Source: a virus. From it: a stretch of DNA of 63,570 nucleotides. Made by a program: the position numbers and the translations under genes. A model generated the notes under the pieces. The model had not been told where the DNA came from. It was given only the letters and a program-made list of their open reading frames with translations, and did not search any database. The DNA lies in IMG/VR virus record IMGVR_UViG_3300025423_000018, positions 1 through 63,570 of that record, one strand, 5' to 3'. Shown here piece after piece: positions 5,751-29,642 of the stretch (its first letter is position 1; every line of letters begins with the position of its first letter).

Positions 5751-6236
5751 TTACTTTTTATGGTGGGTTTTACCACCGTGCTTCATACCCAAGGGCTTAC
5801 CTGCACCCATTTTAGGCTCCATAGCACGTGTATGGCCCTTTTTCTGGATGCTGTGCTCACCATGTTTGAGCTTGCCGCCCACTTCAGCCTTGCCCATCTT
5901 AGCAGTTGTCATACCGCTTTTCTCAGCAACGCCATGCTTACCAGTGGTCATGCCACCAGAAGCCATTTTTTTAACATGATGCTTAGCGTGACCGCCGTGC
6001 TTCATGCCTTTTGCCTCAGAACGCTCTTCTTTAGCGAGCTTTTCGAGGGTCTTTGCTTGACGCAACTCTTTAGTTTTTTCCGATTTCATAGTTCCACCTT
6101 GTTTAAATGTGCGGCCTTTGTCCGCTTTACTGAACTCTTGCCCCACATTTTGAGGGACTCCTGCTTTCTTGGCGAACGCTGGGGAATGAGCGACCGCCTG
6201 CATAAAATTATGCTGCTTCTTCGATACACTCGGCAT
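5751..6236 (-). CDS. Basic KHGG-repeat protein with conserved phage N-terminus
   Basis: The first 40 residues of this 161-aa protein (MPSVSKKQHNFMQAVAHSP, then FAKKAGVPQNVGQEF) resemble a short domain seen in many small phage proteins. The rest is Lys/His/Gly-rich with three MKHGG copies and a C-terminal THHKK. The 5' end overlaps the HNH gene by 29 bases, suggesting that the HNH gene was inserted at this junction. Confidence 0.65.
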   Translation of the reverse strand: MPSVSKKQHNFMQAVAHSPAFAKKAGVPQNVGQEFSKADKGRTFKQGGTMKSEKTKELRQAKTLEKLAKEERSEAKGMKHGGHAKHHVKKMASGGMTTGKHGVAEKSGMTTAKMGKAEVGGKLKHGEHSIQKKGHTRAMEPKMGAGKPLGMKHGGKTHHKK

Positions 6237-6708
6237 GACGTCTCCTAAGAAATTCTTTGCGCCAATTACAATTTTTGCAGAGTAATTGATAGCGTTGTTT
6301 ATCTATACCTTTTGCCCTAAGAATTGAAACAACATTTTTTCTTTTTGCTTCTTTTCTTTCTTTCGCACCATCATTATGTATGTGATCTATGTCCAACACA
6401 ATAGGATCATTTTCACCACAATGATTACATTCCCCACCCAACTCTTTGATTATTTCAAGCCTTTTTTCTTGCCTCCAATCGTTAGAGTATGCATCAAGTC
6501 TTTGTCGATGTTTTTCATAATACTCTTTTCGATATTTTGCTTTTTCTTCTTTTGTTAATTTTGGCTTACTTGAATAATAATTTTTAATAGCACAAATTCT
6601 ACAGCGATAGTTCAAATGTCTTTCACGATTAACTTCATACTTATTAAAAGTTTTTTCTTTCTGACAATCTAAACAATTCACCGTTAAATCTGAGCTAGTT
6701 GATGGCAT
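6208..6708 (-). CDS. HNH homing-type endonuclease
   Basis: This 166-aa protein has two zinc-binding CxxC pairs near the N-terminus (residues 12-15 and 36-39), a basic coiled middle, then an HNH core: CNHC (94-97), DIDHIH (106-111) and CKNC (144-147). This is the layout of free-standing phage HNH endonucleases, which cleave intron-less or marker-less alleles and spread by copying. The ATG has GGAG 7 bases upstream. The ends overlap both neighbours (29 and 14 bases), as expected for a compact insertion. Confidence 0.85.
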   Translation of the reverse strand: MPSTSSDLTVNCLDCQKEKTFNKYEVNRERHLNYRCRICAIKNYYSSKPKLTKEEKAKYRKEYYEKHRQRLDAYSNDWRQEKRLEIIKELGGECNHCGENDPIVLDIDHIHNDGAKERKEAKRKNVVSILRAKGIDKQRYQLLCKNCNWRKEFLRRRHAECIEEAA

Positions 6709-9401: not shown

Positions 9402-10142
9402 CTATTCCTTGGGTGTGTCAAGAAGTTTTTTCTTGTTTCTTGCAGCCATCATTTTTGATTTCCAAATTGGATCCGCCCACAGTGCTTTGGCTGCGGCTTT
9501 TTTAGCAGCTTTGACTTCCTCACGGTTAGCAATTTCTTTGTTGTTTGCAGTTTGTTTAGCCGCATACTCAGGGTCAGCCCACTGAGTTTTAGCTTGAGCG
9601 CTGGTTTTAGCTTTGGACTTGTCTGTATTACGAGCTTCCTTGATGCTTTTAGCCAGTGTACCCCCTTTTGTTTCCCACATCTTTTTAGAATTGATTGACT
9701 TAGATTCAAGTGCTTCTGGCGTATTCTGAGCTTTGGTTTGCCCTGCAACTACTTTGGCGCGATACTCTGGGTCTTGCCAATGTTCTTTGGTAAATCGTCC
9801 ATCAGCGGCTTTTTGTTCTTCCGATTTAATATATCCGCTTGGGCCTTCGCCACCATCAGTTAAATTAAATAATGTTCCTGTTTTTAAATCTCGACGTCCA
9901 TATAGTTTGATAAGTTCCATCTCTTTGGCAAAAGCTTCTTCTTCATTTTCCGTTTCAAATACACGCTCACAAACGGCAACAAAATTGCGCTGTTTTAAAT
10001 GCGAAATAAAGTCTTGAAACGGTTTATTGTGAGATCCTCTTGACCAATGCGATAAATCACGATCTCCTGTACCTTTACCTACGTACACAGGCTGGCCTAG
10101 TTTAAGAGGGCGCGGGTCACGATAAACATAAACATAAAACAT
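9402..10142 (-). CDS. GIY-YIG homing endonuclease
   Basis: The N-terminus of this 246-aa protein carries the GIY-YIG nuclease pattern: YVYVYRDPR (3-11), VYVGKGTGDR (19-28), then an Arg-rich helix and the Glu in EKEMELIKLYGRR. The C-terminal half has several W-x-DPEY/DPIW repeats and Lys-rich helices like the DNA-binding modules of homing enzymes. It sits between the capsid gene and the next structural gene with its own promoter and good ribosome site (AAAAGGAG), and upstream transcription ends at a hairpin. It therefore looks like a self-contained mobile gene. Confidence 0.88.
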   Translation of the reverse strand: MFYVYVYRDPRPLKLGQPVYVGKGTGDRDLSHWSRGSHNKPFQDFISHLKQRNFVAVCERVFETENEEEAFAKEMELIKLYGRRDLKTGTLFNLTDGGEGPSGYIKSEEQKAADGRFTKEHWQDPEYRAKVVAGQTKAQNTPEALESKSINSKKMWETKGGTLAKSIKEARNTDKSKAKTSAQAKTQWADPEYAAKQTANNKEIANREEVKAAKKAAAKALWADPIWKSKMMAARNKKKLLDTPKE

Positions 10143-19777: not shown

Positions 19778-20002
19778 GGGGGATCCTTTTTTGATACCGG
19801 GGGGTCACCTAATATAAAGGGGGTGGGGTCTTGGTTGTGGCGAAATTTTAAAAATGGGTATCGGGTGTGCAGAACACAGTGTAGAGATATCTAGGATTCC
19901 TTTCCTACATTTCGGGGGGTGGCACTCGGGTGGGTCTTTGCTTTGAACCCATAACATTGTTAGCCCTAGGTCAATACAGTTTAATTTTCGTGTGAACACA
20001 AT
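19778..20002. promoter_or_regulatory. Divergent control region between late and early arms
   Basis: About 225 non-coding bases separate the two divergent promoters. The part at 19798-19835 is G-rich (several runs of four to six G), and 19910-19935 holds another G-rich stretch. A one-mismatch copy of the early palindrome lies at 19951-19963, about 40 bases before the early -35. I see no gene here. It may hold regulator or packaging sites, but none can be named. Confidence 0.5.
19951..19963. promoter_or_regulatory. Early palindrome, near copy (ATAACATTGTTAG)
   Basis: This site matches the 13-base palindrome at 12 of 13 positions (A for the first C). It lies between the divergent promoters, 40 bases upstream of the -35 at 20003, a position suited to a regulator acting on the first early promoter. 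Confidence 0.5.
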
Positions 20003-20031
20003 TTGATTTTGATTCTTTTTTGTGGTACAAT
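20003..20031 (+). promoter_or_regulatory. First early promoter (sigma70, TGTGGTACAAT box)
   Basis: TTGATT (20003-20008), 17 bases, TACAAT (20026-20031), with TGG before the -10 (extended -10). The box TGTGGTACAAT is identical in the promoters at 21304 and 22576. It drives the 20097 gene and the two tiny membrane genes that end at the 20809 terminator. Confidence 0.8.
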
Positions 20032-20096: not shown

Positions 20097-20573
20097 ATGA
20101 CAACAACTATCACTACACACGAAGACGCAACGGTGTTAGACCTTATTAATAACGTCGCTGATGCAGTTAAACGCAAGTACGGCGCAACCAAGGCGCTCGC
20201 AGTTAAGTTGTGCGACACTTTACCCGCAGAGTGGTACAACGTCGAGCATTCGGATCAATCCGAAGAAGCTAAGCCCACGCTCGCAGTTGCACAGTTATTC
20301 CGTGACACACTGCGCAACGCCGGACACAAAAACCCGTCGGTCGAGTGGACACGTGTTCGCAACGAAGGCAGAGTATTCGCCGAAGGCGCTCCCGAATCCG
20401 AAGGCGCCGGTGCAAAGAAGCGCACTCTTAAACTGCGTTTAATTGAGGAGTTGACCAAATTGCACAAAGCCGGTCTCGCTGAGAAGTTCGTTAACGAAGA
20501 CGAAGCCGAAGCATTGACTAGCATTGCTAGCGCATTGATAGCGCTCAATGTTGACCTCAATATGATTAAGTAA
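20097..20573 (+). CDS. First early protein, function unknown
   Basis: This 158-aa protein has no recognised family. It has a helical N-terminal half (VLDLINNVADAVKRKYGATK), an acidic-basic middle and a Lys/Arg-rich helix (KKRTLKLRLIEELTKLHK), and ends ALIALNVDLNMIK. It is the first gene after the divergent control region, with AAGGGT upstream and a promoter 65 bases away, so it should be made immediately on infection. A host-takeover or DNA-binding role is possible but not shown. Confidence 0.75.
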   Translation: MTTTITTHEDATVLDLINNVADAVKRKYGATKALAVKLCDTLPAEWYNVEHSDQSEEAKPTLAVAQLFRDTLRNAGHKNPSVEWTRVRNEGRVFAEGAPESEGAGAKKRTLKLRLIEELTKLHKAGLAEKFVNEDEAEALTSIASALIALNVDLNMIK

Positions 20574-20582
20574 ACGTGAGAA

Positions 20583-20601
20583 GCCCTAACAATGTTAGGG
20601 C
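20583..20601. promoter_or_regulatory. Early palindrome, longest arms (GCCCTAACAATGTTAGGGC)
   Basis: Nine-base arms are perfect around a single central A. It lies 9 bases after the stop of the 20097 gene and 24 bases before the next ATG. No U-tract follows, so it is not a terminator. Confidence 0.75.
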
Positions 20602-20625
20602 ACTCTTCAACCCAAGGGGAAAATT

Positions 20626-20724
20626 ATGGATTATCAAGTATGTCTAGGTTTGTTATTTATTGTGACTATCGTTGCATGGATAAGCGCAGAAGTCACATAC
20701 TATCGGAGCACTAAAAATGATTGA
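20626..20724 (+). CDS. Tiny single-span membrane peptide (32 aa)
   Basis: The ATG at 20626 has AAGGGGA upstream. The product begins MDYQVCLGLLFIVTIVAWIS and ends in a short charged tail, so it is almost wholly one membrane helix (residues 5-22). Its last codons overlap the next tiny gene by 8 bases. No homologue is recognised; early membrane peptides of this size may act on host membrane functions. Confidence 0.6.
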   Translation: MDYQVCLGLLFIVTIVAWISAEVTYYRSTKND

Positions 20725-20788
20725 ATTATTTTGCGCAGTGGTTATTGGTATCGTCGCATCAGCAATAATTATATTAACCTCACCCTAA
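20717..20788 (+). CDS. Tiny membrane peptide (23 aa)
   Basis: The ATG at 20717 has GGAG about 8 bases upstream. The product is nearly all hydrophobic (IELFCAVVIGIVASAIIILT, then SP). The TAA stop lies inside the palindrome at 20783-20799, and a strong terminator follows. The overlap with the previous gene suggests coupled translation and a two-peptide unit. Function unknown. Confidence 0.5.
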   Translation: MIELFCAVVIGIVASAIIILTSP

Positions 20789-20799
20789 CATTGTTAGGC
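20783..20799. promoter_or_regulatory. Early palindrome overlapping a stop codon
   Basis: CTAACATTGTTAG at 20785-20797 is an exact copy, covering the TAA stop of the 23-aa gene. It lies 10 bases before the terminator stem at 20809. Confidence 0.7.
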
Positions 20800-20808
20800 T
20801 TCCCTAGG

Positions 20809-20840
20809 TGCTACACTGAACTCAGTGTAGCATTTTTTTT
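20809..20840 (+). terminator. Rho-independent terminator of the first early operon
   Basis: GCTACACTG (20810-20818), an AACT loop, CAGTGTAGC (20823-20831), then eight T after one A. The T/A flanks extend the stem to 10 bp. It closes the unit made of the 20097 gene and the two membrane peptides. Confidence 0.93.
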
Positions 20841-21303
20841 GCGCTTTTGTCAAGCGCATTTATGCCAGTTCCCATAAGAATGTGCATTGTTACGCCTAAT
20901 GTTACGAAAATTGTGTCTTTGTTATACAACACATCGCTGGAAACCCGCATGAATCCTAGATTGTTACATGTTACGTTTTTTTTGATAATTGAATGAAACT
21001 TTGGGAGCACGAACATGAGGAAGCCCTCGGCAAGAGCATTCTGTGCTACATTTGATTTTCCAAGATCATATAAAAATGAGTATAACAATATAACTTACAT
21101 AACATTTAATTTTTTTTAGTTTAGAATCAAGTACTTACAAGCGTTATGTTTTTTTTCTGCCTATTTTTTAAGCATAACATTGCGAAACACTGTACCACAA
21201 ATAGCGCAACGACACTTCCGATGTAATTCTAGAGCTTGCAGTAATACCCAAGTATTCACTTTTTCAATTCAGTCCCACCCAAGACCAACGAGAGACCAAA
21301 GAG
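20841..21303. other. Gene-free A/T-rich region with TGTTAC repeats
   Basis: No convincing gene lies here. WTGTTAC(G/A) occurs four times within 90 bases: 20887-20894, 20899-20906, 20961-20968 and 20968-20975. A long A/T-rich stretch runs from 21060 to 21180, with GTTATG and CATAAC arms around it. The minus strand at 21191-21200 carries TTGTGGTACA, matching the shared promoter box. A replication origin or regulator-binding array is possible, but neither can be shown from sequence. Confidence 0.45.
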
Positions 21304-21332
21304 TTGACATAGGTATAACATTGTGGTACAAT
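21304..21332 (+). promoter_or_regulatory. Second early promoter (consensus -35, extended -10)
   Basis: TTGACA (21304-21309), a 17-base spacer, TACAAT (21327-21332), with TGG before the -10. The spacer contains TATAACATTGTGG, which includes a half-site of the early palindrome. It opens the operon starting at 21411. Confidence 0.88.
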
Positions 21333-21376
21333 ATAGGCTGAAGACAAAAATCTTCTACTCAACAACACTCTCAACC

Positions 21377-21391
21377 CCTAACAATGTTAGG
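21377..21391. promoter_or_regulatory. Early palindrome in the 5' leader of the second operon
   Basis: CCTAACAATGTTAGG lies about 45 bases after the -10 at 21327 and 20 bases before the ATG at 21411, inside the transcribed leader. Confidence 0.7.
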
Positions 21392-21410
21392 CAACAACGA
21401 AAGGTTACTT

Positions 21411-21632
21411 ATGGACTGGAAAGAATGTCTTGCGTGCGGTGACGATATCCGCATCGAGCGTTGGCAACTCGGCTATCGCTTCTGTTTATTCTGTGGTGAA
21501 GATCAAGCACGTGCTGAGCGTGCATCGTGGACTATCATTCAAGAGTATACCAAGGGCAACTACATGTTAGTTACACCTGCCAACGTACACACAACACTCA
21601 AGCAGACTAACCCAAAGGAGAATAGAGCGTGA
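21411..21632 (+). CDS. Small zinc-ribbon early protein
   Basis: This protein has 73 residues from the ATG at 21411, which has AAGG 7 bases upstream; the ATG at 21384 lies inside the palindrome and lacks a ribosome site. It has CLACG (5-9) and CLFCG (24-28), a four-Cys zinc ribbon, then a helix and NYMLVTPANVHTTLKQTNPK. I recognise the pattern as a conserved uncharacterised phage protein. It overlaps the next gene by 4 bases (GTGA). Confidence 0.72.
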   Translation: MDWKECLACGDDIRIERWQLGYRFCLFCGEDQARAERASWTIIQEYTKGNYMLVTPANVHTTLKQTNPKENRA

Positions 21633-21964
21633 GTAAAGATATCCCCAACTATAAAGCACGTGACTACGTGCAACGCAAAGAGCGTTTTGATGGTGCTAAT
21701 GTATACGCAAGATGGCACAGGCGCAGTGATTCACTGCAAAGCAAGCAGACCATATACGTGGTTTACTCGTATGGGAATCACTTCCCCATGTTTGTTTACG
21801 ATGCCGACGCTGACGTATGGGTAGAGAATTCCGATAAGTTCTCGGCAACAACATCAAAACAACGAACACAACTGCATCCATTGTGTGACACATTAAAGCG
21901 TCCGTTAGAAGACGTAAAGTTAGTTGCGGCTTATGGTATCTGTGGACTATTAAATAAGGAGTAA
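21629..21964 (+). CDS. Hypothetical early protein
   Basis: This 111-aa protein starts at GTG with AAAGGAG upstream and overlaps the previous stop. It is mixed alpha/beta, with TIYVVYSYGNHFPMFVYDAD in the middle and a C-terminal helix. No family recognised. It is the second gene of the 21304 operon. Confidence 0.65.
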   Translation: MSKDIPNYKARDYVQRKERFDGANVYARWHRRSDSLQSKQTIYVVYSYGNHFPMFVYDADADVWVENSDKFSATTSKQRTQLHPLCDTLKRPLEDVKLVAAYGICGLLNKE

Positions 21965-21967
21965 AAA

Positions 21968-22129
21968 ATGACTGAAGGCGACTACTTAAAAGCACTCGAA
22001 CTCATCAAAGATGCTGAGCGCAACATCAGGGAAGGAGATTATGACCTTGCTCATATTGCAGTAATCGAAGCCCTAACATTGCTTGACGAGCGTGAGCGAG
22101 TCATGGGTGAAGAAGATGAGCGAGTTTGA
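21968..22129 (+). CDS. Small helical early protein (53 aa)
   Basis: The ATG at 21968 lies 4 bases after the previous stop. The product (MTEGDYLKALELIKDAERNI, then a second helix with ALTLLDERERVMGEED) looks like a helical hairpin. A half palindrome (CCCTAACATTG) lies in its coding sequence at 22071-22081. Function unknown. Confidence 0.55.
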   Translation: MTEGDYLKALELIKDAERNIREGDYDLAHIAVIEALTLLDERERVMGEEDERV

Positions 22130-22313
22130 TGATCGGCCTGAATGGATTGTGTACAGAATAATTGGACATCCGTTCAGTTTATTAGCCACGACCAAGCCAG
22201 TGTGGGACTCGATGATGGAGTATTCACGAAATGAGTACAGGTTCGAAATTGTTGCCGAGAATTTAACGTTCGAAACTGCAACGAAGATGATAAGACTAAC
22301 GAAGGGAGAATAA
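22116..22313 (+). CDS. Hypothetical early protein
   Basis: This protein has 65 residues from the ATG at 22116; the ATG at 22083 lies deeper inside the previous gene. The product begins MSEFDDRPEWIVYRIIGHPF and ends KMIRLTKGE, a small alpha/beta protein of unknown family. It overlaps its upstream neighbour by 14 bases. Confidence 0.55.
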   Translation: MSEFDDRPEWIVYRIIGHPFSLLATTKPVWDSMMEYSRNEYRFEIVAENLTFETATKMIRLTKGE

Positions 22314-22314
22314 C

Positions 22315-22413
22315 ATGAGCTATAACCGACGGAGCGAATTGATATCACGCGTGATCTTTCTGATTGCGGTTATTGTGATATGTGCAGATTTATTTATCTG
22401 GAGGAGAGGATGA
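22315..22413 (+). CDS. Tiny single-span membrane peptide (32 aa)
   Basis: The ATG at 22315 has AAGGGAG upstream. A basic start (MSYNRRSELISR) is followed by one span (VIFLIAVIVICADLFIW) and RRG. The TGA overlaps the ATG of the next gene. The charge pattern (positive on both sides) resembles the other tiny early membrane peptides here. Confidence 0.55.
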   Translation: MSYNRRSELISRVIFLIAVIVICADLFIWRRG

Positions 22414-22571
22414 AGCTAACCAAGTACTACGTGACCGGATACAACCCACGGTTCGGCAACTGGAGTGCACAAGTGTACGAATGTGCAACGATGGAGAATG
22501 CGAAACTTAGATTTTCCCTTGAGTTTCCATACCTCAAAACAATTAAGGCTTACGCCCTACGGACAGACTAA
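22410..22571 (+). CDS. Hypothetical early protein (53 aa)
   Basis: I chose the ATG at 22410 because GGAGGAG stands just upstream and it overlaps the previous stop (ATGA). The product contains KYYVTGYNPRFGNWSAQVYE, a likely beta meander. It is the last gene of the 21304 operon; the next promoter starts 4 bases after its stop. Confidence 0.6.
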   Translation: MKLTKYYVTGYNPRFGNWSAQVYECATMENAKLRFSLEFPYLKTIKAYALRTD

Positions 22572-22575
22572 ATGC

Positions 22576-22604
22576 TTGACTCAGGTATTATTCTGTGGTA
22601 CAAT
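22576..22604 (+). promoter_or_regulatory. Third early promoter, driving the MoxR-VWA genes
   Basis: TTGACT (22576-22581), 17 bases, TACAAT (22599-22604), with TGG before the -10. The box TGTGGTACAAT is shared with two other early promoters. A palindrome follows at 22654-22670. Confidence 0.85.
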
Positions 22605-22653
22605 GTTATTAAAAAAGCTCAATGAGCGAAGTGAATTGTGTTTGTCAGCAACC

Positions 22654-22670
22654 CCCTAACAATGTTAGGG
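22654..22670. promoter_or_regulatory. Early palindrome in the MoxR leader
   Basis: CCCTAACAATGTTAGGG lies in the transcribed leader, 50 bases after the -10 and 24 bases before the MoxR ATG at 22695. Confidence 0.75.
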
Positions 22671-22694
22671 ATATTAACCTAGAAGGAACTAAAA

Positions 22695-23759
22695 ATGTCA
22701 GAAGTAAATTTCGGTAAGTCAATTACATTGAAGCAAGCATCAAAGCTCATTCAATCCAACCCTGAGACTCGTTTTCTACTTGAAGGTGAGCCGGGCATTG
22801 GGAAGTCATCCCTATTAGAGAGTATAGCCAACGGTATGGGCTACGACTATGCCTACATCGATGTGCCGAACATGGACTTGGGCGATATCGCCATGCCTGT
22901 GATCGACCACGACACCAAGACTACCAAGTATTACCCTAATGCTAGGTTCAAGATTCACGAAGGCAAACCACTGGTGATCATGCTCGACGAGTTCACCAAA
23001 GGTGCAGACCCTGTGAAGAACATGCTTCACCCCATGCTAGAGAAGGCAAACCCAAGACTCGGTGACATTCCAATACCCAAGGAGACCATTGTGTTTTTGA
23101 CTGGTAATCTTTCGACCGACGGTGTGGGTGACTCCCTGAAAGCACATAGCCGTAATCGTTTGGTTCCCGTGCGTATCCGCAAACCCGATGCCGATGAGTG
23201 GATCGAGTGGGCGATGGGCAAAGGTATCGAGCCCGAGGTGATTGCATGGGTGAATCGGTTCCCTCATGTGTTGGCTAGCTATACCGATGGTGGATCCGGA
23301 GATAACCCATACATCTATTCACCTAAGAGTAATCAGAAGGCGTTTGTTTCCCCTCGTTCGCTAGAGACTGCATCTAACATTGTTAGGACTCGTAAGGACA
23401 ACGATCCTGATACGGTGATATCCGCATTGACTGGTGCGATCGGTGAAGCAGGTGCTCGGGATATGCAAGCGTACATCGAGTTCTCAGATCAACTGCCGAC
23501 ATGGGAAGCGACGATTGCTAACCCTAAGACTACGCAGATACCAACATCAGCCGGTGCCTGTGCGATTGTGGTATTCGGTGCGATTGCACGGATGACCAAG
23601 GAGAGCATCACTCCATTCATGGAGTATCTACAACGGTTCGATGCCGAGTGGCAAGCCGTGTTTGCGATCAACATTGCGAAGACACCGAGCAAGCAAGCGA
23701 TAGCGTTCAGTTGCAAGGCGTTCAGTGATTGGGTTGCGAAGAATCAAGACTTACTTTAA
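22695..23759 (+). CDS. MoxR/CobS-like AAA+ ATPase
   Basis: This 354-aa protein has Walker A GEPGIGKSS (31-39), Walker B VIMLDEF (94-100), then IVFLTGNLSTDG (sensor 1), SRNRLVPVRIRKPDADEW (the MoxR-type box after the Arg finger), and a helical lid. MoxR ATPases remodel proteins or insert metals together with a VWA partner; the VWA gene follows after 12 bases, so the two likely work as a pair. An exact palindrome copy sits inside the coding region at 23374. Confidence 0.88.
   Translation: MSEVNFGKSITLKQASKLIQSNPETRFLLEGEPGIGKSSLLESIANGMGYDYAYIDVPNMDLGDIAMPVIDHDTKTTKYYPNARFKIHEGKPLVIMLDEFTKGADPVKNMLHPMLEKANPRLGDIPIPKETIVFLTGNLSTDGVGDSLKAHSRNRLVPVRIRKPDADEWIEWAMGKGIEPEVIAWVNRFPHVLASYTDGGSGDNPYIYSPKSNQKAFVSPRSLETASNIVRTRKDNDPDTVISALTGAIGEAGARDMQAYIEFSDQLPTWEATIANPKTTQIPTSAGACAIVVFGAIARMTKESITPFMEYLQRFDAEWQAVFAINIAKTPSKQAIAFSCKAFSDWVAKNQDLL
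23374..23386. promoter_or_regulatory. Early palindrome inside the MoxR gene
   Basis: CTAACATTGTTAG, an exact copy, encodes part of the peptide SNIVR. Its presence inside a coding region argues for roadblock-type or RNA-level action rather than only promoter repression. Confidence 0.65.
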
Positions 23760-23765
23760 TAGGAG

Positions 23766-23778
23766 CTAACAATGTTAG
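23766..23778. promoter_or_regulatory. Early palindrome covering the VWA start codon
   Basis: CTAACAATGTTAG is exact. Its ATG (23772-23774) is the start codon of the VWA gene, and the AGGAG ribosome site (23761-23765) abuts it. A protein or hairpin here could block translation. Confidence 0.7.
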
Positions 23779-24962
23779 AGGAACGAAAAATACAGAAGGC
23801 CAAGATCAGCTTGATGCGTAACCCCAAGTTCGCATTGCTCAGTGGTATCTTGATGGTGGGACGTACGTTTGTTGACGATAACACACCGACTGCTAGGACT
23901 AACGGACGTGACGAGTGGTATGGGCGTAAGTTCATCAACGAGTTGACCGAGAAGGAGCTTGCGTTTGTGATTGCACACGAAGCGTCGCACAAGATGTATC
24001 GTCACTTGACTACGTATAAGAAGCTACATGAAGAGAATGCAATGCTGGCGAATGGTGCGTGTGACTACGTGATCAACCTGATGCTACAAGATACAGACCC
24101 CGAGCAAACCGTGATCACCATGCCACGGTGGAAGAGTGGCGAGAAGAAAGGTGAGCCGATGGGCTTGATCGATGAGAAGTATCGAGGTATGAATTCCAAG
24201 CAAGTGTTCGACCTACTGAAGCAGAACGATGATGGATCGGGCGGAGATGGGTTCGATGAGCATGACTGGGAAGAAGCAACGAAAGGCATGACAGAGCAAG
24301 AGAAACGTGAGTTGGCTAGGGATATTGACCAAGCCATAAGACAAGGACTCATGGCACAACACAAAGTTGCCGGTAAGGGTAGAAGTGGTGGTGACCGAGA
24401 GCTTGAAGATCTACTCAATCCCAAGGTGGATTGGCGTGAAGTCTTGCGTGAGTTCGTGAAAGCCACATGCAATGCCAAGGATACTTCATCATGGCGCAGG
24501 GTTAACCGACGTTATCTATCGACTGGTATGTACATGCCGAGCATGATCGGTGAGCGAGTTGGTCATATCGTGATAGCCGTAGATACATCGGGGTCAGTAG
24601 GACAACAAGAATTATCTGAGTTCCTTGGTGAAGTCAAAGGTGTAGCAGAGGAGGTGCATCCTGAGAAAGTTGACTTGATCTACTGGGGTTCAGATGTTGC
24701 AGGTCACGAAGAGTACGAAGGCAATGCGGTGGCTAACATTGTTAGTTCTACAAAGCCCAAGGGCGGTGGAGGTACATCGCCGAGTTGCGTGTCCGAGTAT
24801 CTCGAAGAGAAGAAGATCGTGCCCGAGTGCATCATTGTTCTTACCGACGGATACGTAGGCAGTGACTGGGGTGGCAACTGGACTGCACCAATTCTGTGGA
24901 CTATCGTAGGAGGTAATGATGTCGTTTCACCGAATGGCAAAACAATTCACATCAACAATTAA
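23772..24962 (+). CDS. Metallopeptidase-like / VWA protein, partner of MoxR
   Basis: This 396-aa protein has a zinc-site pattern HEASH (69-73) in an N-terminal putative metallopeptidase domain (DUF2201-like), a charged linker (about 150-215), then a VWA domain with MIDAS DTSGS (D271, S273, S275) and a later LTDGYVG. VWA proteins paired with MoxR ATPases act as substrate or metal-ion adaptors, as in CobS/CobT cobalt chelation. The extra HExxH-like site suggests an enzyme rather than a simple adaptor, but activity is inference. A palindrome copy lies inside at 24733. Confidence 0.83.
   Translation: MLEERKIQKAKISLMRNPKFALLSGILMVGRTFVDDNTPTARTNGRDEWYGRKFINELTEKELAFVIAHEASHKMYRHLTTYKKLHEENAMLANGACDYVINLMLQDTDPEQTVITMPRWKSGEKKGEPMGLIDEKYRGMNSKQVFDLLKQNDDGSGGDGFDEHDWEEATKGMTEQEKRELARDIDQAIRQGLMAQHKVAGKGRSGGDRELEDLLNPKVDWREVLREFVKATCNAKDTSSWRRVNRRYLSTGMYMPSMIGERVGHIVIAVDTSGSVGQQELSEFLGEVKGVAEEVHPEKVDLIYWGSDVAGHEEYEGNAVANIVSSTKPKGGGGTSPSCVSEYLEEKKIVPECIIVLTDGYVGSDWGGNWTAPILWTIVGGNDVVSPNGKTIHINN
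24733..24745. promoter_or_regulatory. Early palindrome inside the VWA gene
   Basis: CTAACATTGTTAG, an exact copy, encodes part of the peptide ANIVS. Confidence 0.65.
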
Positions 24963-24993
24963 TATTAACCGAGCACTAATGAGGAGAGATGAA

Positions 24994-25245
24994 ATGATGA
25001 TTGTAACTATTGGCTATCAAGACTATGCGTTACCAACCAAGGACGCCATAACATTGTTAGAGTTACTGAGCAAGGCAGAGAGGTACGAGGACAGGTACGT
25101 ATCAAAAGATTCCAAGGAGAACACAACAGGCGAAGCGTATCACACGTTTCATGTGTATGAGAATGACACGGTGTTCAATGCCAAGGTTATCCCTAACGAG
25201 AAATACCGAATGGCTAAGCTAGCGGGTAAACCCGAGCGTTCATAA
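24994..25245 (+). CDS. Small protein between VWA and DUF3150-like genes
   Basis: This protein has 83 residues from the ATG at 24994, which has GAGGAG upstream; earlier ATGs lie inside the VWA gene. The product begins MMIVTIGYQDYALPTKDAIT and ends KLAGKPERS. A near copy of the palindrome lies in its codons for AITLLEL. Function unknown; the context ties it to the MoxR-VWA cassette. Confidence 0.6.
   Translation: MMIVTIGYQDYALPTKDAITLLELLSKAERYEDRYVSKDSKENTTGEAYHTFHVYENDTVFNAKVIPNEKYRMAKLAGKPERS
25048..25060. promoter_or_regulatory. Early palindrome, near copy (ATAACATTGTTAG)
   Basis: This site matches 12 of 13 bases, with the same first-base change as the copy at 19951. It is read in a different frame from the two copies in MoxR and VWA, so peptide conservation cannot explain it. 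Confidence 0.5.
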
Positions 25246-25263
25246 TTTAACAGGAGAAATCAA

Positions 25264-26115
25264 ATGAGTATTAGTTCATCAGCAGTATTAGTAGAGTTGA
25301 ATATCAGCGTATGGCCAGCCAGTAAAGTTGACCGTGAAACAACTGATCTTGTGAATAGCAACGCATCAGCAGTGCGAGATGCCAGCCAGACCAAGAAGAA
25401 TCTTTTTGCAGGTACGAGCATGCGTAAGGATATCGACAAGTTCGCCGCCCGAGTGCGTCTGTATCACAACCAACACACATTGCCTTGGGCAGACAAGGGT
25501 CAACGACTTCTACCTACTAAGCTATTCATGGAATACAAGCAGACCATGGATGCACACGAGCACACATTCAATATGATGTGCAATAACTTCTATGCCATGT
25601 ATCCTCAGTTGGTACAGGATGCGAGCGTAAGTCTAGGTTCACTCTACAAAGCAAGCGACTATCCCGATATCGAGGAAGTCAAGGGTAAGTTCGGGTTCAG
25701 AAGATCCGTCGATCCAATCCCTGAGAGTGGCGACTTTAGATTAGATGTATCAGCAGAGGACTTAGCGGATTTGAAAAACCACTATGAACAACAATATAGC
25801 AATAGGATAGCCGAAGCGATGCGTGCACCGTGGGAACGTCTGCATACTACGTTAACTGCAATGTCTGAGAAGCTCACCGAACGAGCTAGTGATCAGAAGG
25901 TTCGGTATCACGACAGTCTACTAACGAATGCGCAAGACTTGTGCTCGCTGTTGACCAAGCTCAATGTGACCAATGATCCGAAGTTAGAGGAAGCTAGGCA
26001 AGACCTTGAGCGTGCGTTGGTAGGTGCAGACATGGACGGACTGAAAGAAGATTCGTTCGAGCGTCATGCCTTGAAGAACAAAGTGGATGCCATCATTGGC
26101 AAGTTCAACTGGTAA
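25264..26115 (+). CDS. DUF3150-like protein of the MoxR-VWA cassette
   Basis: This 283-aa protein is mostly helical. It has the pattern VELNISVWPASKVDRETTDL, then LYHNQHTLPWADKGQRLLP, LFMEYKQTMDAHEH and a mid-protein ASDYPDIEEVKGKFGF. I recognise this as the DUF3150 type, whose genes stand beside CobS/MoxR ATPase and CobT/VWA genes in some integrative elements and phages (from memory). Its role is unknown; a structural or substrate subunit of the complex is likely. AGGAGA precedes the ATG. Confidence 0.68.
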   Translation: MSISSSAVLVELNISVWPASKVDRETTDLVNSNASAVRDASQTKKNLFAGTSMRKDIDKFAARVRLYHNQHTLPWADKGQRLLPTKLFMEYKQTMDAHEHTFNMMCNNFYAMYPQLVQDASVSLGSLYKASDYPDIEEVKGKFGFRRSVDPIPESGDFRLDVSAEDLADLKNHYEQQYSNRIAEAMRAPWERLHTTLTAMSEKLTERASDQKVRYHDSLLTNAQDLCSLLTKLNVTNDPKLEEARQDLERALVGADMDGLKEDSFERHALKNKVDAIIGKFNW

Positions 26116-26124
26116 GGGGTATGT

Positions 26125-26289
26125 ATGAAAGCATGGACTAAGTATCCGAACACATTTGATTCGGATGTTCTTGAGAAGGTTCCACATATTGTGGAAGACC
26201 GAGATGGTAATCAAGTTGAGGTGATGGCGCTTGATCCAATCAACGCTATCGTATTGGTAACTGAAATGATAATGGAGAATTTTAAATGA
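26125..26289 (+). CDS. Hypothetical early protein (54 aa)
   Basis: The ATG at 26125 has AAGGGG just upstream. The product begins MKAWTKYPNTFDSDVLEKVP and ends in a hydrophobic helix (AIVLVTEMIM, then ENFK). Its TGA overlaps the next ATG (ATGA). Function unknown. Confidence 0.55.
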   Translation: MKAWTKYPNTFDSDVLEKVPHIVEDRDGNQVEVMALDPINAIVLVTEMIMENFK

Positions 26290-27101
26290 TTGATGCAATG
26301 ATGCTATCCAGTGTTTACATGGAGAAGAATAAGAGTAAGACCGACGTAAAGATGGACTCCAATCTATCTGAGATTGTGGTTGCGTTAGCTACTACTAATC
26401 CGACGTGGTCATTCGAGTGCATACCTCATCAGTTCAGAGATCGTATTGGTAAGGTTTACGTATATGCAGAGGGGCAACAGATTGGTTACCTTAACCGTGA
26501 GTATTCTAACCGAGCCGGTGGTAATGCAACTAGAGTTAGTAAGCCCAATGAGTATAGACGCAACGGAGAATTCACAGTCACGTCCGACAACAAGAAGGCC
26601 ATTCGTGAAGCGAAGAAACGTTTCACGGTTAAGTCTATTAAAGAAATAATAGGCGAGAAGTATAGAGAAGCTAGAGATATAGTGCAACAACAACGATACC
26701 GCAAGGGTAGCAGGGCAGGGGATTGTGTAGGTTCGTTGAGAGATGTTATGCATAAGTACACATTTGAAGAATATCGGGAGCAGTTCGTTTCGTTCTTGAC
26801 CAAGCAACATAACAGTTCACAACTATTAAGTAAGCTCAAGGAGTTTGATGAGATAACTGCGGAGTTCAACGCAATCGACGCAATCGAGGAAAAGGTGAAG
26901 ACAGACGACCATGTACTTATCCATATCAATGGGAGTAAATATATTGTTAAGACTATTGACAATGTACAATCTTATGATGATAATACACTCCCCGAAGAAT
27001 ACAGAGGTAAGCTCGGTATGCTGAAGTTGGTGGAGGTGAACCAGTGTGTATCGGATGTGGGATGCAGAACACATGACGATACGTTCTTAATTGTTACCTA
27101 A
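26286..27101 (+). CDS. Hypothetical early protein (271 aa)
   Basis: No family is recognised. It has an N-terminal helical part, a beta region with RDRIGKVYVYAEGQQIGYLN, a Lys/Arg-rich middle (KKAIREAKKRFTVKSIKEII) and an acidic C-terminal half. The basic centre could bind nucleic acid. The TAA stop lies within the palindrome at 27098. It is probably the last gene of the 22576 transcript segment that includes MoxR and VWA. Confidence 0.65.
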   Translation: MIDAMMLSSVYMEKNKSKTDVKMDSNLSEIVVALATTNPTWSFECIPHQFRDRIGKVYVYAEGQQIGYLNREYSNRAGGNATRVSKPNEYRRNGEFTVTSDNKKAIREAKKRFTVKSIKEIIGEKYREARDIVQQQRYRKGSRAGDCVGSLRDVMHKYTFEEYREQFVSFLTKQHNSSQLLSKLKEFDEITAEFNAIDAIEEKVKTDDHVLIHINGSKYIVKTIDNVQSYDDNTLPEEYRGKLGMLKLVEVNQCVSDVGCRTHDDTFLIVT

Positions 27102-27110
27102 CAATGTTAG
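27098..27110. promoter_or_regulatory. Early palindrome overlapping a stop codon
   Basis: CTAACAATGTTAG is exact (CC...GG flanks at 27097-27111). It includes the TAA stop of the 26286 gene and lies 16 bases before the next ATG at 27127. Confidence 0.7.
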
Positions 27111-27126
27111 GGGTTGAAAGGTATAT

Positions 27127-27312
27127 ATGAATACAGAGATGTTAAAACGTGCAAGGAAACTGTGGGCGGTGGAGTACATGTCCCACTACGAGAACAGGAC
27201 GAACATGCGCAAGTGGGTGAAGGCGGTGCGTGTGGTCAGAGACAATGGGAACTGGCTTTTGTTGAAAAAGGTGGGGAGGGCAAATGAAAATGCAAGCAAC
27301 ACTATCGTTTAA
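27127..27312 (+). CDS. Small basic early protein
   Basis: This 61-aa protein is rich in Arg/Lys/Trp (MLKRARKLWAVEYMSHYENR, then RKWVKAVRVVRDNGNWLL). GAAAGG lies upstream. It overlaps the next gene by 29 bases. A nucleic-acid-binding role is possible. Function unknown. Confidence 0.55.
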   Translation: MNTEMLKRARKLWAVEYMSHYENRTNMRKWVKAVRVVRDNGNWLLLKKVGRANENASNTIV

Positions 27313-27487
27313 TTACCCCGAGGATGAAGGTAGGTTGGAAGACGCAATGCGTGCAACTGAGTACAAGGAAGCGTTACAACGTGTGGAGAAACGTATACAA
27401 GAACACTTTGACCATGACGACAGTCCTGAGTTCACCATAGCAAGTATCAACACAATAGTAAAGCTAGCATTGAAGGGGCACTTATGA
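27284..27487 (+). CDS. Hypothetical early protein (67 aa)
   Basis: The ATG at 27284 has GGGAGGG upstream. The product is acidic and helical, with ATEYKEALQRVEKRIQEHF, and ends IVKLALKGHL. It overlaps the following membrane peptide gene by 4 bases. Function unknown. Confidence 0.55.
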   Translation: MKMQATLSFNYPEDEGRLEDAMRATEYKEALQRVEKRIQEHFDHDDSPEFTIASINTIVKLALKGHL

Positions 27488-27579
27488 GAACGTTTTGGCT
27501 ATTCTTAATTTGGCTTGAGTTGTGCATCGTCAACTGGAATCTCAAGGACATCGTTCACGTACTGGAGAAAACGACATGA
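27484..27579 (+). CDS. Tiny membrane peptide (31 aa)
   Basis: ATG at 27484 overlaps the previous stop (ATGA). The product begins MRTFWLFLIWLELCIVNWNL, a single hydrophobic helix, then a short charged tail. Its stop overlaps the next ATG. It is one of five tiny membrane genes in the early arm. Confidence 0.5.
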   Translation: MRTFWLFLIWLELCIVNWNLKDIVHVLEKTT

Positions 27580-27845
27580 CTGAACAAGAAATGATTGGGA
27601 TTACCAATCAAGCTAGCAAAGAATGGCTTAAAGAATTTCCAACGCCGCAAGAAACGGCGCACCCAGTGCCTAAACGCTTTTTGGAAATCTTTGCCAAACT
27701 AATAGCAGAAAAAGAACGTGAGGCGTGTGCTGAAATTTGTGATGGTTTTTACTTATCATGGATAGACATACAAGGTAGATATGAATTCATGGGTGAGGGA
27801 GCAAGCGAATGTGCTGGTGCAATCCGAGCAAGGGGACAAGAATGA
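27576..27845 (+). CDS. Conserved phage protein with ACAEIC motif
   Basis: This protein has 89 residues from the ATG at 27576 (ATGA overlap); the earlier ATG at 27522 lies inside the membrane peptide gene. It contains RFLEIFAKLIAEKEREACAE, then ICDGFYLSWID, and ends IRARGQE. The 32693-32908 product shares FAKLxAEKERxACAxIC and the RGQE end, so they are paralogues. Such EREACA proteins are common in phages; function unknown. Confidence 0.6.
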   Translation: MTEQEMIGITNQASKEWLKEFPTPQETAHPVPKRFLEIFAKLIAEKEREACAEICDGFYLSWIDIQGRYEFMGEGASECAGAIRARGQE

Positions 27846-27982
27846 CTAACGAAGAAATCATAGCCAAAATTATGGCTAACCAATGGTGGCCGTTCGACCG
27901 AGTGGATCCCAAGATACTTGAGGAGATACAACGTAGGGATAAGCAGAAAACCGTCGCTGAGATGGAGGAAGCACCGCTATGA
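27842..27982 (+). CDS. Small early protein (46 aa)
   Basis: ATG at 27842 overlaps the previous stop. The product begins MTNEEIIAKIMANQWWPFDR and ends KTVAEMEEAPL, amphipathic and charged. It is followed with a 4-base overlap by a membrane peptide gene. Function unknown. Confidence 0.5.
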   Translation: MTNEEIIAKIMANQWWPFDRVDPKILEEIQRRDKQKTVAEMEEAPL

Positions 27983-28092
27983 CTGAACTTGGATTTTTTG
28001 TAGTTATGTTTGCGTTTGTATGCGCAATGATGAACGCAGGTTTGGTGATGTTTTTAATATGGATGATTTACAGGAGCATGAACAATGATTGA
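27979..28092 (+). CDS. Tiny membrane peptide (37 aa)
   Basis: ATG at 27979 overlaps the previous TGA. The product (MTELGFFVVMFAFVCAMMNA, then GLVMFLIWMIYRSMNND) is Met-rich and hydrophobic over about 30 residues, enough for one long or two short membrane segments. It overlaps the next gene by 8 bases. Confidence 0.5.
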   Translation: MTELGFFVVMFAFVCAMMNAGLVMFLIWMIYRSMNND

Positions 28093-28276
28093 ATTTACAC
28101 TTACGGAGATAGTCCTATTGGCATGGGCGGGCATTGCCACAGGCATGGCACTGCATTATTGGGAGGAAGATAGGGGTCACAGAAGATTTGTGACTACCTT
28201 GATTGAGAACAAGGGGTTGCGAGAAGAGTTTTATAGCAAGATTGATAAACACATTGAGGAGCACAAAGAATGTTAA
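28085..28276 (+). CDS. Membrane-anchored small protein (63 aa)
   Basis: An N-terminal span (residues about 5-24, LTEIVLLAWAGIATGMALHY) is followed by a charged cytoplasmic helix ending KIDKHIEEHKEC. GGAG lies upstream. Part of the chain of overlapping small early genes; function unknown. Confidence 0.55.
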   Translation: MIEFTLTEIVLLAWAGIATGMALHYWEEDRGHRRFVTTLIENKGLREEFYSKIDKHIEEHKEC

Positions 28277-28533
28277 ATAGTATAAAACAACTGATAAGTG
28301 CAAGTAAATCACAAGAAGTTTTACATGCAAGAAACCCCAACGAATTACGCACAGATACCAACGTGAAGTTTGGTGTAATCCAAGCGTTGAATGGCAAGAT
28401 CATTGAGATCAGTACGTACAAACCCAACCACAATGGGCCTGACTGGACACACCAATGCTATATCGTAAAAGACGAAGAGACGCTAGCAGAAGCTATGGCG
28501 ACTGTGATTACGATGAAAGGGCTAGAGCAATGA
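28270..28533 (+). CDS. Hypothetical early protein (87 aa)
   Basis: The product has a helical start, then a beta region (NVKFGVIQALNGKIIEISTY, then HQCYIVKDEETLAEAM). GAGG lies upstream within the previous gene. No family recognised. Confidence 0.55.
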   Translation: MLNSIKQLISASKSQEVLHARNPNELRTDTNVKFGVIQALNGKIIEISTYKPNHNGPDWTHQCYIVKDEETLAEAMATVITMKGLEQ

Positions 28534-28775
28534 AGAAATGGGATGGATTCGACGAAGCGATTCTTGGGCCAGCAAGCGTTTGGAATGGCAATACTAGAGT
28601 AGAGGTATTGGTTTACGATGGCGATGCTATGCGAGATATTTTGATGAAGCGTGACTCCATGAGCATGGAAGATGCACGTGAGTTTATTGAATACAATCTT
28701 GAGGGCGCCTACATCGGTGAGGATACGCCTGTTATCGTATGGACAAATGATTTATATTGGGAGGAGGAAGAATGA
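28530..28775 (+). CDS. Hypothetical acidic early protein
   Basis: This protein has 81 residues from the ATG at 28530 (ATGA overlap). It contains KKWDGFDEAILGPASVW, then DAREFIEYNLEGAYIGEDTP and ends WEEEE. I recognise the DAREFIEYNxEGAYxGExTP pattern as recurring in phages; function unknown. Confidence 0.6.
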   Translation: MKKWDGFDEAILGPASVWNGNTRVEVLVYDGDAMRDILMKRDSMSMEDAREFIEYNLEGAYIGEDTPVIVWTNDLYWEEEE

Positions 28776-28987
28776 TATTCGACCGTATCGACGAGTTGAA
28801 GACTGGAATAGAAAAGAAAAAGCATGGGCGGGGTCTTGGTAAGAAACCTGCGCTTGTGCACTTGAGCTTGCGCTTGCCGAAAGATGTGATGGATTTTTTT
28901 GATTCACGCTATCCGTATGCAAAGCAAGCCAAGATACGAGAAATTCTTACTGATTATGTAAACAAGGAACTAACCAATGAAAAGTAG
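28772..28987 (+). CDS. Ribbon-helix-helix-like DNA-binding protein
   Basis: This protein has 71 residues from the ATG at 28772, overlapping the previous TGA. The C-terminal half (VHLSLRLPKDVMDFFDSRYP, then KQAKIREILTDYVNK) has the strand-helix-helix order of BrnA-type or Arc-type ribbon-helix-helix repressors. Such proteins bind short inverted repeats as dimers, making it one candidate for the early palindrome. That link is inference. Confidence 0.6.
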   Translation: MIFDRIDELKTGIEKKKHGRGLGKKPALVHLSLRLPKDVMDFFDSRYPYAKQAKIREILTDYVNKELTNEK

Positions 28988-29480
28988 AGCACAAATCGTA
29001 CGTGAGTACATAAACGCAAACCCCGAAGCTACAACTGCGGAAGTAGCCAAGAAGTGCAAAGTCACGACTCAGTACGTGTATCAAGTCAAGTCTGACGAGA
29101 AGAAAAGACTAGCGAAAAAGCGAGTGAAGATCACTGCAACCCAAGCTGAAGTGGCTAAGAGAATGGGTGTACCTCTTTCGGTATACGCAAATAATTTATT
29201 ACCCAACGGAAAATTAAAAACAAGAATGCAAGCGTCATTCGATAGAGAACCGCCTACCATTACGATGGAAGAGCCAAAGGCCGACCCAGTCAATCACCCA
29301 CCGCATTACAAGACTGGCGGTATTGAGACTATCGACTTTATTGAAGCGAAAGAGTTAGGCTATCACTTGGGCAACGTTATCAAGTACGTTACTAGAGCCA
29401 AGCACAAGGGCAATGAACTTGAAGATCTTAAGAAAGCACAATGGTATCTCGAACGTGCTATTATGAAGCTACATATTTGA
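28977..29480 (+). CDS. HTH plus DUF3310 protein (T7 gp1.7-like domain)
   Basis: Residues 5-40 of this 167-aa protein form a helix-turn-helix (IVREYINANPEATTAEVAKK). Residues 51-71 (KITATQAEVAKRMGVPLSVY) match the C-terminal motif of the scaffold. Residues 103-165 are a DUF3310 domain (DPVNHPPHYKTGGIETIDFI, then VIKYVTRAKHKGN and LKKAQWYLERA). DUF3310 occurs in T7 gp1.7, a nucleotide kinase; catalysis here is not shown. It ends the chain of overlapping early genes. Confidence 0.72.
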   Translation: MKSRAQIVREYINANPEATTAEVAKKCKVTTQYVYQVKSDEKKRLAKKRVKITATQAEVAKRMGVPLSVYANNLLPNGKLKTRMQASFDREPPTITMEEPKADPVNHPPHYKTGGIETIDFIEAKELGYHLGNVIKYVTRAKHKGNELEDLKKAQWYLERAIMKLHI

Positions 29481-29555
29481 AGCGGGTTGCTTAAATCACG
29501 TGTAAGGAAACCTTGCAGATGCGAACTTATACGTGCTACGTACGTCCCCGCTTTA
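29478..29555 (+). ncRNA. Structured RNA candidate (two-stem, about 78 nt)
   Basis: TGAAGCGGG (29478-29486) pairs with CCCGCTTTA (29547-29555). Inside, CACGTGTAAG (29497-29506) pairs with CTTATACGTG (29526-29535), a 10-bp stem with one G-U pair, capped by a 19-base loop. It begins in the stop region of the DUF3310 gene and is followed by AAGATTTTTG. It could be a terminator-like 3' end or a small RNA; it does not fit a tRNA. Confidence 0.5.
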
Positions 29556-29591
29556 AAGATTTTTGACGTATGTAGACCTTTCCAACCATGA

Positions 29592-29619
29592 GGGGGGCGT
29601 GGAATCTGCATAACCCCCC
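29592..29619 (+). repeat. G6/C6 hairpin
   Basis: GGGGGG (29592-29597) and CCCCCC (29614-29619) with a 16-base loop lie 7 bases before the palindrome at 29626. Its role is unknown; it may insulate the next promoter. Confidence 0.45.
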
Positions 29620-29625
29620 AACCAC

Positions 29626-29642
29626 CCCTAACAATGTTAGGG
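29626..29642. promoter_or_regulatory. Early palindrome upstream of the replication block
   Basis: CCCTAACAATGTTAGGG lies 21 bases before the -35 at 29664. It is the rightmost copy found; none was seen beyond this point. Confidence 0.75.

Follow-up and report, generated by a model that had tools for sequence, protein, structure and literature searches.

A three-gene cassette in a freshwater phage recurs as a unit in other phages and on plasmids, and it lies in an early region marked by a dispersed array of one short palindrome. The window that we analysed is the 63,570-nucleotide stretch at positions 1 to 63,570 of IMG/VR virus record IMGVR_UViG_3300025423_000018, and the cassette occupies 22695-26115. 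Its genes encode a MoxR-type AAA+ ATPase (gene 1), a metallopeptidase fused to a VWA-like domain (gene 2), and a divergent DUF3150-family protein (gene 3). Our best reading of the sequence is that a nearby gene, here called R, likely encodes a stoperator-like roadblock regulator of the early genes, including the cassette, with the palindromes as its putative operators. Taken as a whole, this account, in which genes 1 to 3 would form one machine and R would regulate it, seems to us somewhat better than an even bet.

Identity of the cassette genes

All three open reading frames (ORFs) were found exactly where the original prediction, a reading of the bare sequence, had located them. The genes of the cassette and its immediate surroundings are as follows.

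22695-23759, + strand: gene 1, MoxR-type AAA+ ATPase, phrog_1297, 354 amino acids
23772-24962, + strand: gene 2, HExxH metallopeptidase (DUF2201_N) fused to a VWA-like domain (DUF2201) with a metal ion-dependent adhesion site (MIDAS), phrog_1314, 396 amino acids
24994-25245, + strand: small 83-amino-acid protein, phrog_4367-like, often found between genes 2 and 3
25264-26115, + strand: gene 3, divergent DUF3150-family protein, mostly helical, 283 amino acids
26286-27101, + strand: fast-evolving 271-amino-acid protein with no assigned family, 3' of the cassette

Gene 1 had been called a MoxR AAA+ protein from its Walker A (GEPGIGKSS) and Walker B (VIMLDEF) motifs; Pfam agrees, reporting AAA and AAA_5, and residues P33, G34, G36, K37, D98 and R155 are invariant across five homologues. 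Gene 2, described as a protein with an HEASH motif and a MIDAS (DTSGS), matches DUF2201_N (PF13203, 7e-27, 95.1 bits) and the VWA-like DUF2201 (PF09967, 9e-17, 61.8 bits), both above cut-off. Its HExxH motif is present in 6/6 aligned proteins, D271, S273, S275, T335 and D359 are invariant, and the H-E-H and MIDAS residues are shared without change by the window protein, N4 gp25 and the Cupriavidus plasmid homologue. Because these catalytic and MIDAS residues do not vary, gene 2 appears to be selected as an enzyme. N4 gp25 itself (L096:11164-12306) is annotated as an HNH endonuclease, the name that phrog_1314 bears in PHROGs and in many phage records; its members carry the DUF2201 HExxH metallopeptidase and VWA domains.

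Gene 3 has no direct match in Pfam (E 0.1) or PHROGs. It is, however, 29% identical (3e-26) to the DUF3150-annotated protein of Synechococcus phage MinM2 (OQ594354, a cyanophage isolate), and an iterated profile groups it with 67 further open frames (a count that includes redundant loci), with the MinM2 protein at E 4e-82. One profile family, with E below 1e-68, spans gene 3 and the MinM2 and Tunturi_3 proteins, and the gene 3 homologue of one related locus, L057, passes the PF11348 cut-off (26.6 versus 24.9 bits). Since the homologues of gene 3 reach the MinM2 protein and that of L057 passes the cut-off, we regard gene 3 as a divergent relative of DUF3150, in line with the original prediction that its product was DUF3150-like. 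A search of the Protein Data Bank (PDB) with the gene 3 model gave only generic helical bundles (Z below 9) among the matches listed.

Association of the three genes in phages and plasmids

The three genes had been predicted to co-occur in other genomes and to be spread over phages and mobile elements, and our neighborhood survey gave strong evidence for both. We collected 59 IMG/VR loci through gene 2 as a set of related viral contigs. Gene 1 was detected in all but six of these loci, most of the exceptions being short of upstream sequence, and gene 3 in all but a few, mostly truncated. In close relatives gene 3 follows gene 2, and in distant ones it precedes gene 1; because it changes place yet stays with genes 1 and 2, the association of the trio survives rearrangement. 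In MinM2, all three genes fall within 4.5 kb.

The association extends to plasmids. For 42 plasmids with a DUF3150 homologue, three hit tables showed the ATPase and VWA genes adjoining it in 41, usually arranged ATPase-DUF3150-VWA and separated by short gaps. These trio-bearing plasmids belong mostly to Burkholderiales, and several are conjugative. When four plasmid neighborhoods were inspected closely, two lay near PRTRC genes, one of these two beside type IV secretion genes. On the conjugative plasmids pRK1-1 and pBMC401, for example, PRTRC genes (protein A, ThiF family) are located within several kb of an AAA-DUF3150-VWA operon. The ATPase-VWA pair without DUF3150 is far more widely distributed, occurring in N4-like phages and in actinobacterial and cyanobacterial plasmids. 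Two close relatives, DSL-LC04 and HTVC023P, are annotated without the trio. Our literature searches returned no paper naming the term DUF3150, and nothing on the ATPase/VWA pair in the N4 and Schitoviridae literature.

A dispersed operator array in the early region

The early region of the window contains three promoters and an array of palindromes, which we refer to as operators. Its features are listed here in order.

19951-19963: operator ATAACATTGTTAG, TAACA-T-TGTTA core intact, upstream of the R promoter
20003-20031, + strand: promoter P1 of gene R, TTGATT-17-TACAAT, TGTGG extended -10
20097-20573, + strand: gene R, 158 amino acids, candidate operator-binding regulator, first gene of the early region, all-helical model
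20586-20598: operator CTAACAATGTTAG, directly after R
20785-20797: operator CTAACATTGTTAG
20806-20835, + strand: intrinsic terminator closing the R unit, 13 pairs followed by a T tract
21304-21332, + strand: promoter P2, TTGACA-17-TACAAT, TGTGG extended -10
21378-21390: operator centred at about +44 of P2, over the start codon of 21384-21632
21384-21632, + strand: conserved early gene, 82-amino-acid protein with weak zinc-ribbon similarity
22576-22604, + strand: promoter P3 of the cassette, TTGACT-17-TACAAT, TGTGG extended -10
22656-22668: operator, exact CTAACAWTGTTAG, centred at about +50 of P3, 27 bp before gene 1
23374-23386: operator, exact CTAACAWTGTTAG, inside gene 1, encoding SNIVR
23766-23778: operator, exact CTAACAWTGTTAG, over the gene 2 start codon
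24733-24745: operator, exact CTAACAWTGTTAG, inside gene 2
25048-25060: operator core ATAACATTGTTAG, inside the small gene 24994-25245
27098-27110: operator over the stop codon of 26286-27101
29628-29640: last operator of the array

The sequence CTAACAWTGTTAG occurs exactly nine times in the window, always within 20586-29640, and its 11-bp core is kept in two further copies; all 11 cores lie between 19951 and 29640, with none elsewhere. The original prediction had noted palindromes at or inside the first two genes of the cassette. The four exact copies at 22656, 23374, 23766 and 24733 bear this out, but they are not a local feature of those genes, being part of a regulon-wide array with a probable regulator at 20097-20573.

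All three promoters have TTGANN-17-TACAAT and the extended element TGTGGTACAATR. As predicted, one promoter precedes the trio, a sigma-70 promoter with an extended -10 at 22576-22604, and there is no comparable one between the three genes. The suggestion that the cassette is tightly regulated is also supported. Across related phages the spacing between promoter and operator is strikingly regular. Among 37 extended -10 promoters in 19 sequences, an operator is centred between +32 and +60 in 30 cases, where 1.4 would be expected. The other sites near such promoters are at -66 to -90, most of them belonging to the gene R promoter, and none of the 37 promoters has an operator covering its -35 or -10 element. 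Because the sites stand downstream of promoters and inside genes, and never over a promoter, the layout is that of a roadblock rather than of classical promoter occlusion.

The operators inside genes are conserved as nucleotide sequence. At the gene 1 site, which encodes Ser-Asn-Ile-Val-Arg, the 13 bases are invariant in 13/13 relatives with the same type of site, the best of 1050 windows, whereas in 12 phages with another site type this position ranks 673rd. The gene 2 site is conserved likewise but less strictly, ranking 30 in same-type phages versus 735 in the others. Bases flanking the palindromes covary no more than column composition predicts, and A and T are about equally common at the centre (90:85), so the conserved object is better described as a symmetric DNA site than as an RNA stem.

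Near-complete relatives have about 11-20 cores each, with total sites of about 11-23 per near-complete genome, and in each genome one spacer class dominates: spacer 1 (TAACA-N-TGTTA) or spacer 2 (TAACA-N2-TGTTA), hardly ever both, although one genome (G001) has 19 and 4. At the gene 1 position, four loci (L010, L012, L029 and L031) whose arrays are spacer-2, or whose sites are too few for typing, keep a spacer-1 core, possibly a relic of an earlier site type.

Other lineages carrying the trio have arrays of their own, built on CTGACA-N2-TGTCAG, TTATCA-N2-TGATAA, GTATGGG-N4-CCCATAC, GTAGT-N5-ACTAC, TATAGG-N2-CCTATA or GTGTAT-N5-ATACAC. The best repeat beats dinucleotide shuffles in 10 of the 12 loci tested (not in L035 or L029). 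Each trio lineage has its own dispersed inverted repeat (L047-L054, L006, L026, L036, L042, L043-L046, L057), with some copies over start codons; in G012, GTATGGG-N4-CCCATAC occurs ten times, all within 1.7-10 kb. MinM2 carries 21 copies of GTTCAG-N-CTGAAC, several of them in the gaps around its MoxR, DUF3150 and VWA genes. No such array was found in the 50 kb examined of DSL-LC04 and HTVC023P, nor was a repeated palindrome array found at the Burkholderiales plasmid operon.

A candidate regulator that changes with site type

Gene R has homologues in spacer-1, spacer-2 and CTGACA phages. It lies among operators in all 20 sequences examined, nearly always with one operator close upstream and one close downstream, and the upstream operator is present in nearly all relatives. 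After correction for gene 2 identity, the pairwise identity of R tracks site type (partial r 0.58, permutation p 0.001), a test to be read with the caveat that its genomes overlap in part with those from which R was picked; none of eight other genes compared follows site type (largest partial r 0.26, p 0.09). The contrast is clear in single pairs. Between the window and the same-type G008 or the other-type L006, genes 1, 2 and 3 are 92/92, 80/80 and 84/82% identical, respectively, while R is 62% identical in the first case and 26% in the second.

One structural detail of R follows the spacer. The stretch from the end of helix 3 to an invariant tryptophan in helix 4 measures 17 residues in 11/11 spacer-1 R proteins (in two alignments), and 19 or 21 residues in 7/7 spacer-2 proteins. 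Three R proteins found later fit the pattern, one spacer-1 protein without and two spacer-2 proteins with two extra residues, bringing the total to 21/21. Spacer class changes at least five times on the gene 2 tree and twice on the R tree, which indicates that R and the site set moved together against the backbone. The second change on the R tree is that of G003, which groups with the spacer-1 R proteins and has its own 4-residue insertion. In G006, gene R (L094:5256-5778) is split over two frames in a genome with 20 spacer-2 sites, through either a broken gene or a sequence error. The AlphaFold model of R has six helices, with a predicted local distance difference test score (pLDDT) of 81 and a predicted template modelling score (pTM) of 0.53.

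Another candidate for the binding protein was set aside. The ribbon-helix-helix-like protein at 28772-28987 has no Pfam hit and weak similarity to antitoxins in PHROGs, and R fits better. Screening for a gene found in spacer-1 phages alone yielded mostly spurious ORFs; R occurs in both classes, as two deep types.

In the mechanism that we propose, R would bind the approximately 11 dispersed 13-bp palindromes as a dimer, and the cassette would be one unit of an early regulon under its control. Bound R, at sites 32-60 bp downstream of early promoters and inside genes, would halt elongating RNA polymerase. The turn before the fourth helix of R may set the spacer length, 1 or 2 bp, and relatives appear to have repeatedly swapped R along with all its sites. 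The fuller generalization is that a family of apparently virulent podoviruses uses a previously undescribed all-helical R as a polymerase roadblock at 10-20 palindromes, close behind promoters and within genes, and that its lineages have repeatedly switched the site set along with R. In one kind of switch, that of spacing, a turn insertion of 2-4 residues accompanies one extra spacer base. The regulon would include a mobile-element chaperone-protease with DUF3150. We give that generalization slightly less than an even chance.

Several observations weigh against the account. R belongs to no recognized DNA-binding family, and a PDB fold search with its model gave no significant match. No homologue of R was found in the marine lineages or in MinM2, although arrays are present there, so another protein must serve in those phages. 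The MinM2 sites, moreover, are spread across the whole 65-kb genome. The correlation between turn and spacer depends on two changes on the R tree, along long branches. As for the cassette, gene 3 scores below the PF11348 gathering threshold; a genome search was also null, but its controls likewise gave nothing.

Function of the cassette

Genes 1 to 3 would encode a single ATP-driven machine. In MoxR-vWA couples, the VWA domain captures a client peptide and the ATPase ring remodels the client (review, PMC7159879). Here the MoxR-type ring of gene 1 would work with the metalloprotease and peptide-binding VWA domain of gene 2, while the helical DUF3150 partner from gene 3 probably bridges the other two products or presents the substrate. 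Made early, the machine would remodel or cleave a protein that matters when DNA enters or takes over the cell, such as a host, defense or replication complex, rather than a virion protein. The complex, its protease activity and its target are inferred.

The cassette is on the + strand in a block of replication genes, opposite to the terminase, portal and capsid genes of the - strand, in line with the early rather than late role first suggested. This location and the presence of the trio on conjugative plasmids, which have no virion, argue against virion assembly as the sole or general role. The likely function thereby shifts to a need of incoming DNA, and one common to phage and plasmid (early takeover, anti-defense, or remodelling of a replication or host complex) would fit better. 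PADLOC returned only weak P-loop matches, for gene 1, and nothing here is direct evidence for host takeover, defense or anti-defense.

Alternative explanations

The cassette might instead be a chaperone and processing protease for virion assembly. That role was proposed for the MoxR and metallopeptidase-vWA pair of group 2.2 jumbo phages in PMC7824862, which also refers to a MoxR-vWA system that an archaeal virus requires to assemble its tail, and N4-like lytic phages carry the ATPase/VWA pair. We consider this improbable for the window, where the cassette shares its strand with replication genes and not with late genes, where close relatives (DSL-LC04, HTVC023P) are annotated without it, and where the full trio is contiguous on conjugative plasmids that make no virions. 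Hardly credible is a cobaltochelatase-like CobS/CobT pair that aids host cobalamin synthesis: the AAA and VWA proteins are similar at the fold level and gene 1 weakly matches phrog_249, annotated as porphyrin biosynthesis (E 0.013), but gene 2 bears a DUF2201 metallopeptidase with an invariant HExxH, and the early ORFs include none of CobN size except a DUF927 primase, although no CobN profile search was made.

For the palindromes, the strongest competing view accepts the operators but assigns them to another phage or host protein, R being only a linked early neighbor. The absence of a known DNA-binding fold in R, the arrays of lineages in which searches gave no homologue of R, and the comparison of only nine genes speak for it; we think it unlikely nonetheless, since R alone of the nine tracks site type, lies among the sites in every one of the 20 sequences, and has a turn length matching spacer length in 21/21 proteins. 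The palindromes might also act in RNA, as hairpins that are processed or bound by a translational repressor. They can form short stems, at two of the nine exact sites the start codon of the overlapped gene falls within the palindrome, and 29626-29642 scores as a weak terminator. Yet the arm sequences are fixed, the flanks show no more covariation than chance would give, A and T are equally frequent at the centre, and the sites keep a set distance from promoters but not from genes, so with covariation absent we judged RNA hairpins distinctly improbable. Phage-plasmids have dispersed centromere sites, and the 10-20 sites over 10-15 kb seen here resemble them, which raises the further idea of centromere-like or origin-like sites (for partition, replication or DNA condensation) or recombination signals. 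To this we give still less credit, given the constant position of sites between +32 and +60 from promoters (30/37 against 1.4 expected), the conservation of sites within codons only in same-type phages, and the lack of ParA/ParB, integrase or partition genes among the roughly 30 ORFs scanned with Pfam, which are not every ORF.

Other features of the window

Rfam reported nothing in the window, and no tRNA was found. The protein at 28977-29480 combines an N-terminal helix-turn-helix-like part with a C-terminal DUF3310 domain. Among the late genes, 6208-6708 and 9402-10142 encode weakly endonuclease VII-like and GIY-YIG-like proteins, possibly homing endonucleases. Long repeat-rich proteins at 51137-54709 and 60368-63370 (Pro/Thr repeats; NTAVGYQA-like units) are probably virion or tail-fibre components.

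Comparison with known systems

The closest precedent for the array is the stoperator system of Cluster A mycobacteriophages (L5, Bxb1; PMC6550527), in which, as here, 13-bp sites are dispersed, mostly off promoters, and motif and repressor diverge together. Stoperators are asymmetric and oriented with transcription, while the operators of the window are palindromic and unoriented (centre A:T 90:85), confined to the early region, and placed at a fixed distance downstream of promoters. Unlike the stoperator repressor, candidate R has no recognized fold, and the roughly 30 ORFs scanned include no integrase. Because the sites are neither asymmetric nor oriented and the candidate lacks a known DNA-binding fold, we use the name stoperator-like rather than claim a stoperator system. 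If our reading is true, this would be a second way, unrelated to the first, of exerting control through dispersed operators beyond the actinobacteriophages, and pairs of close relatives in which the regulator and all its sites have been switched would offer a system for studying joint change of a regulator and a dozen sites.

The cassette has several relatives. The pair of group 2.2 jumbo phages (PMC7824862) is likewise phage-borne, with the protease N-terminal to the VWA domain, and a DUF3150 partner is not mentioned in the available part of that paper; the group described here differs in its constant DUF3150, its early location and a trio held in common with conjugative plasmids. N4 gp24/gp25 and their counterparts in N4-like phages (phrog_1297, phrog_1314) are adjacent genes in a block with replication genes and keep the catalytic and MIDAS residues, but identity is 17-25%, and no DUF3150 homologue was detected in the N4 stretch searched. 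The Burkholderiales plasmid operon (Cupriavidus pRK1-1, Burkholderia ambifaria pBMC401) contains the same three families contiguously, differing from the phage cassette in its AAA-DUF3150-VWA order and its PRTRC and type IV secretion neighbors. MoxR-vWA ternary conflict systems (PMC7159879) also join the couple to a third constant protein (VMAP, iSTAND, FtsH or beta-propeller). Pfam reported none of these domains in the three proteins, although no dedicated VMAP test was made; the third component here is DUF3150, the genes are borne by phages and plasmids rather than by multicellular bacteria, and no effector domains were seen. In this group of phages, DUF3150 is the constant third partner of the MoxR-metallopeptidase pair, and the cassette joins the MoxR-vWA systems as a new member with a new constant partner.

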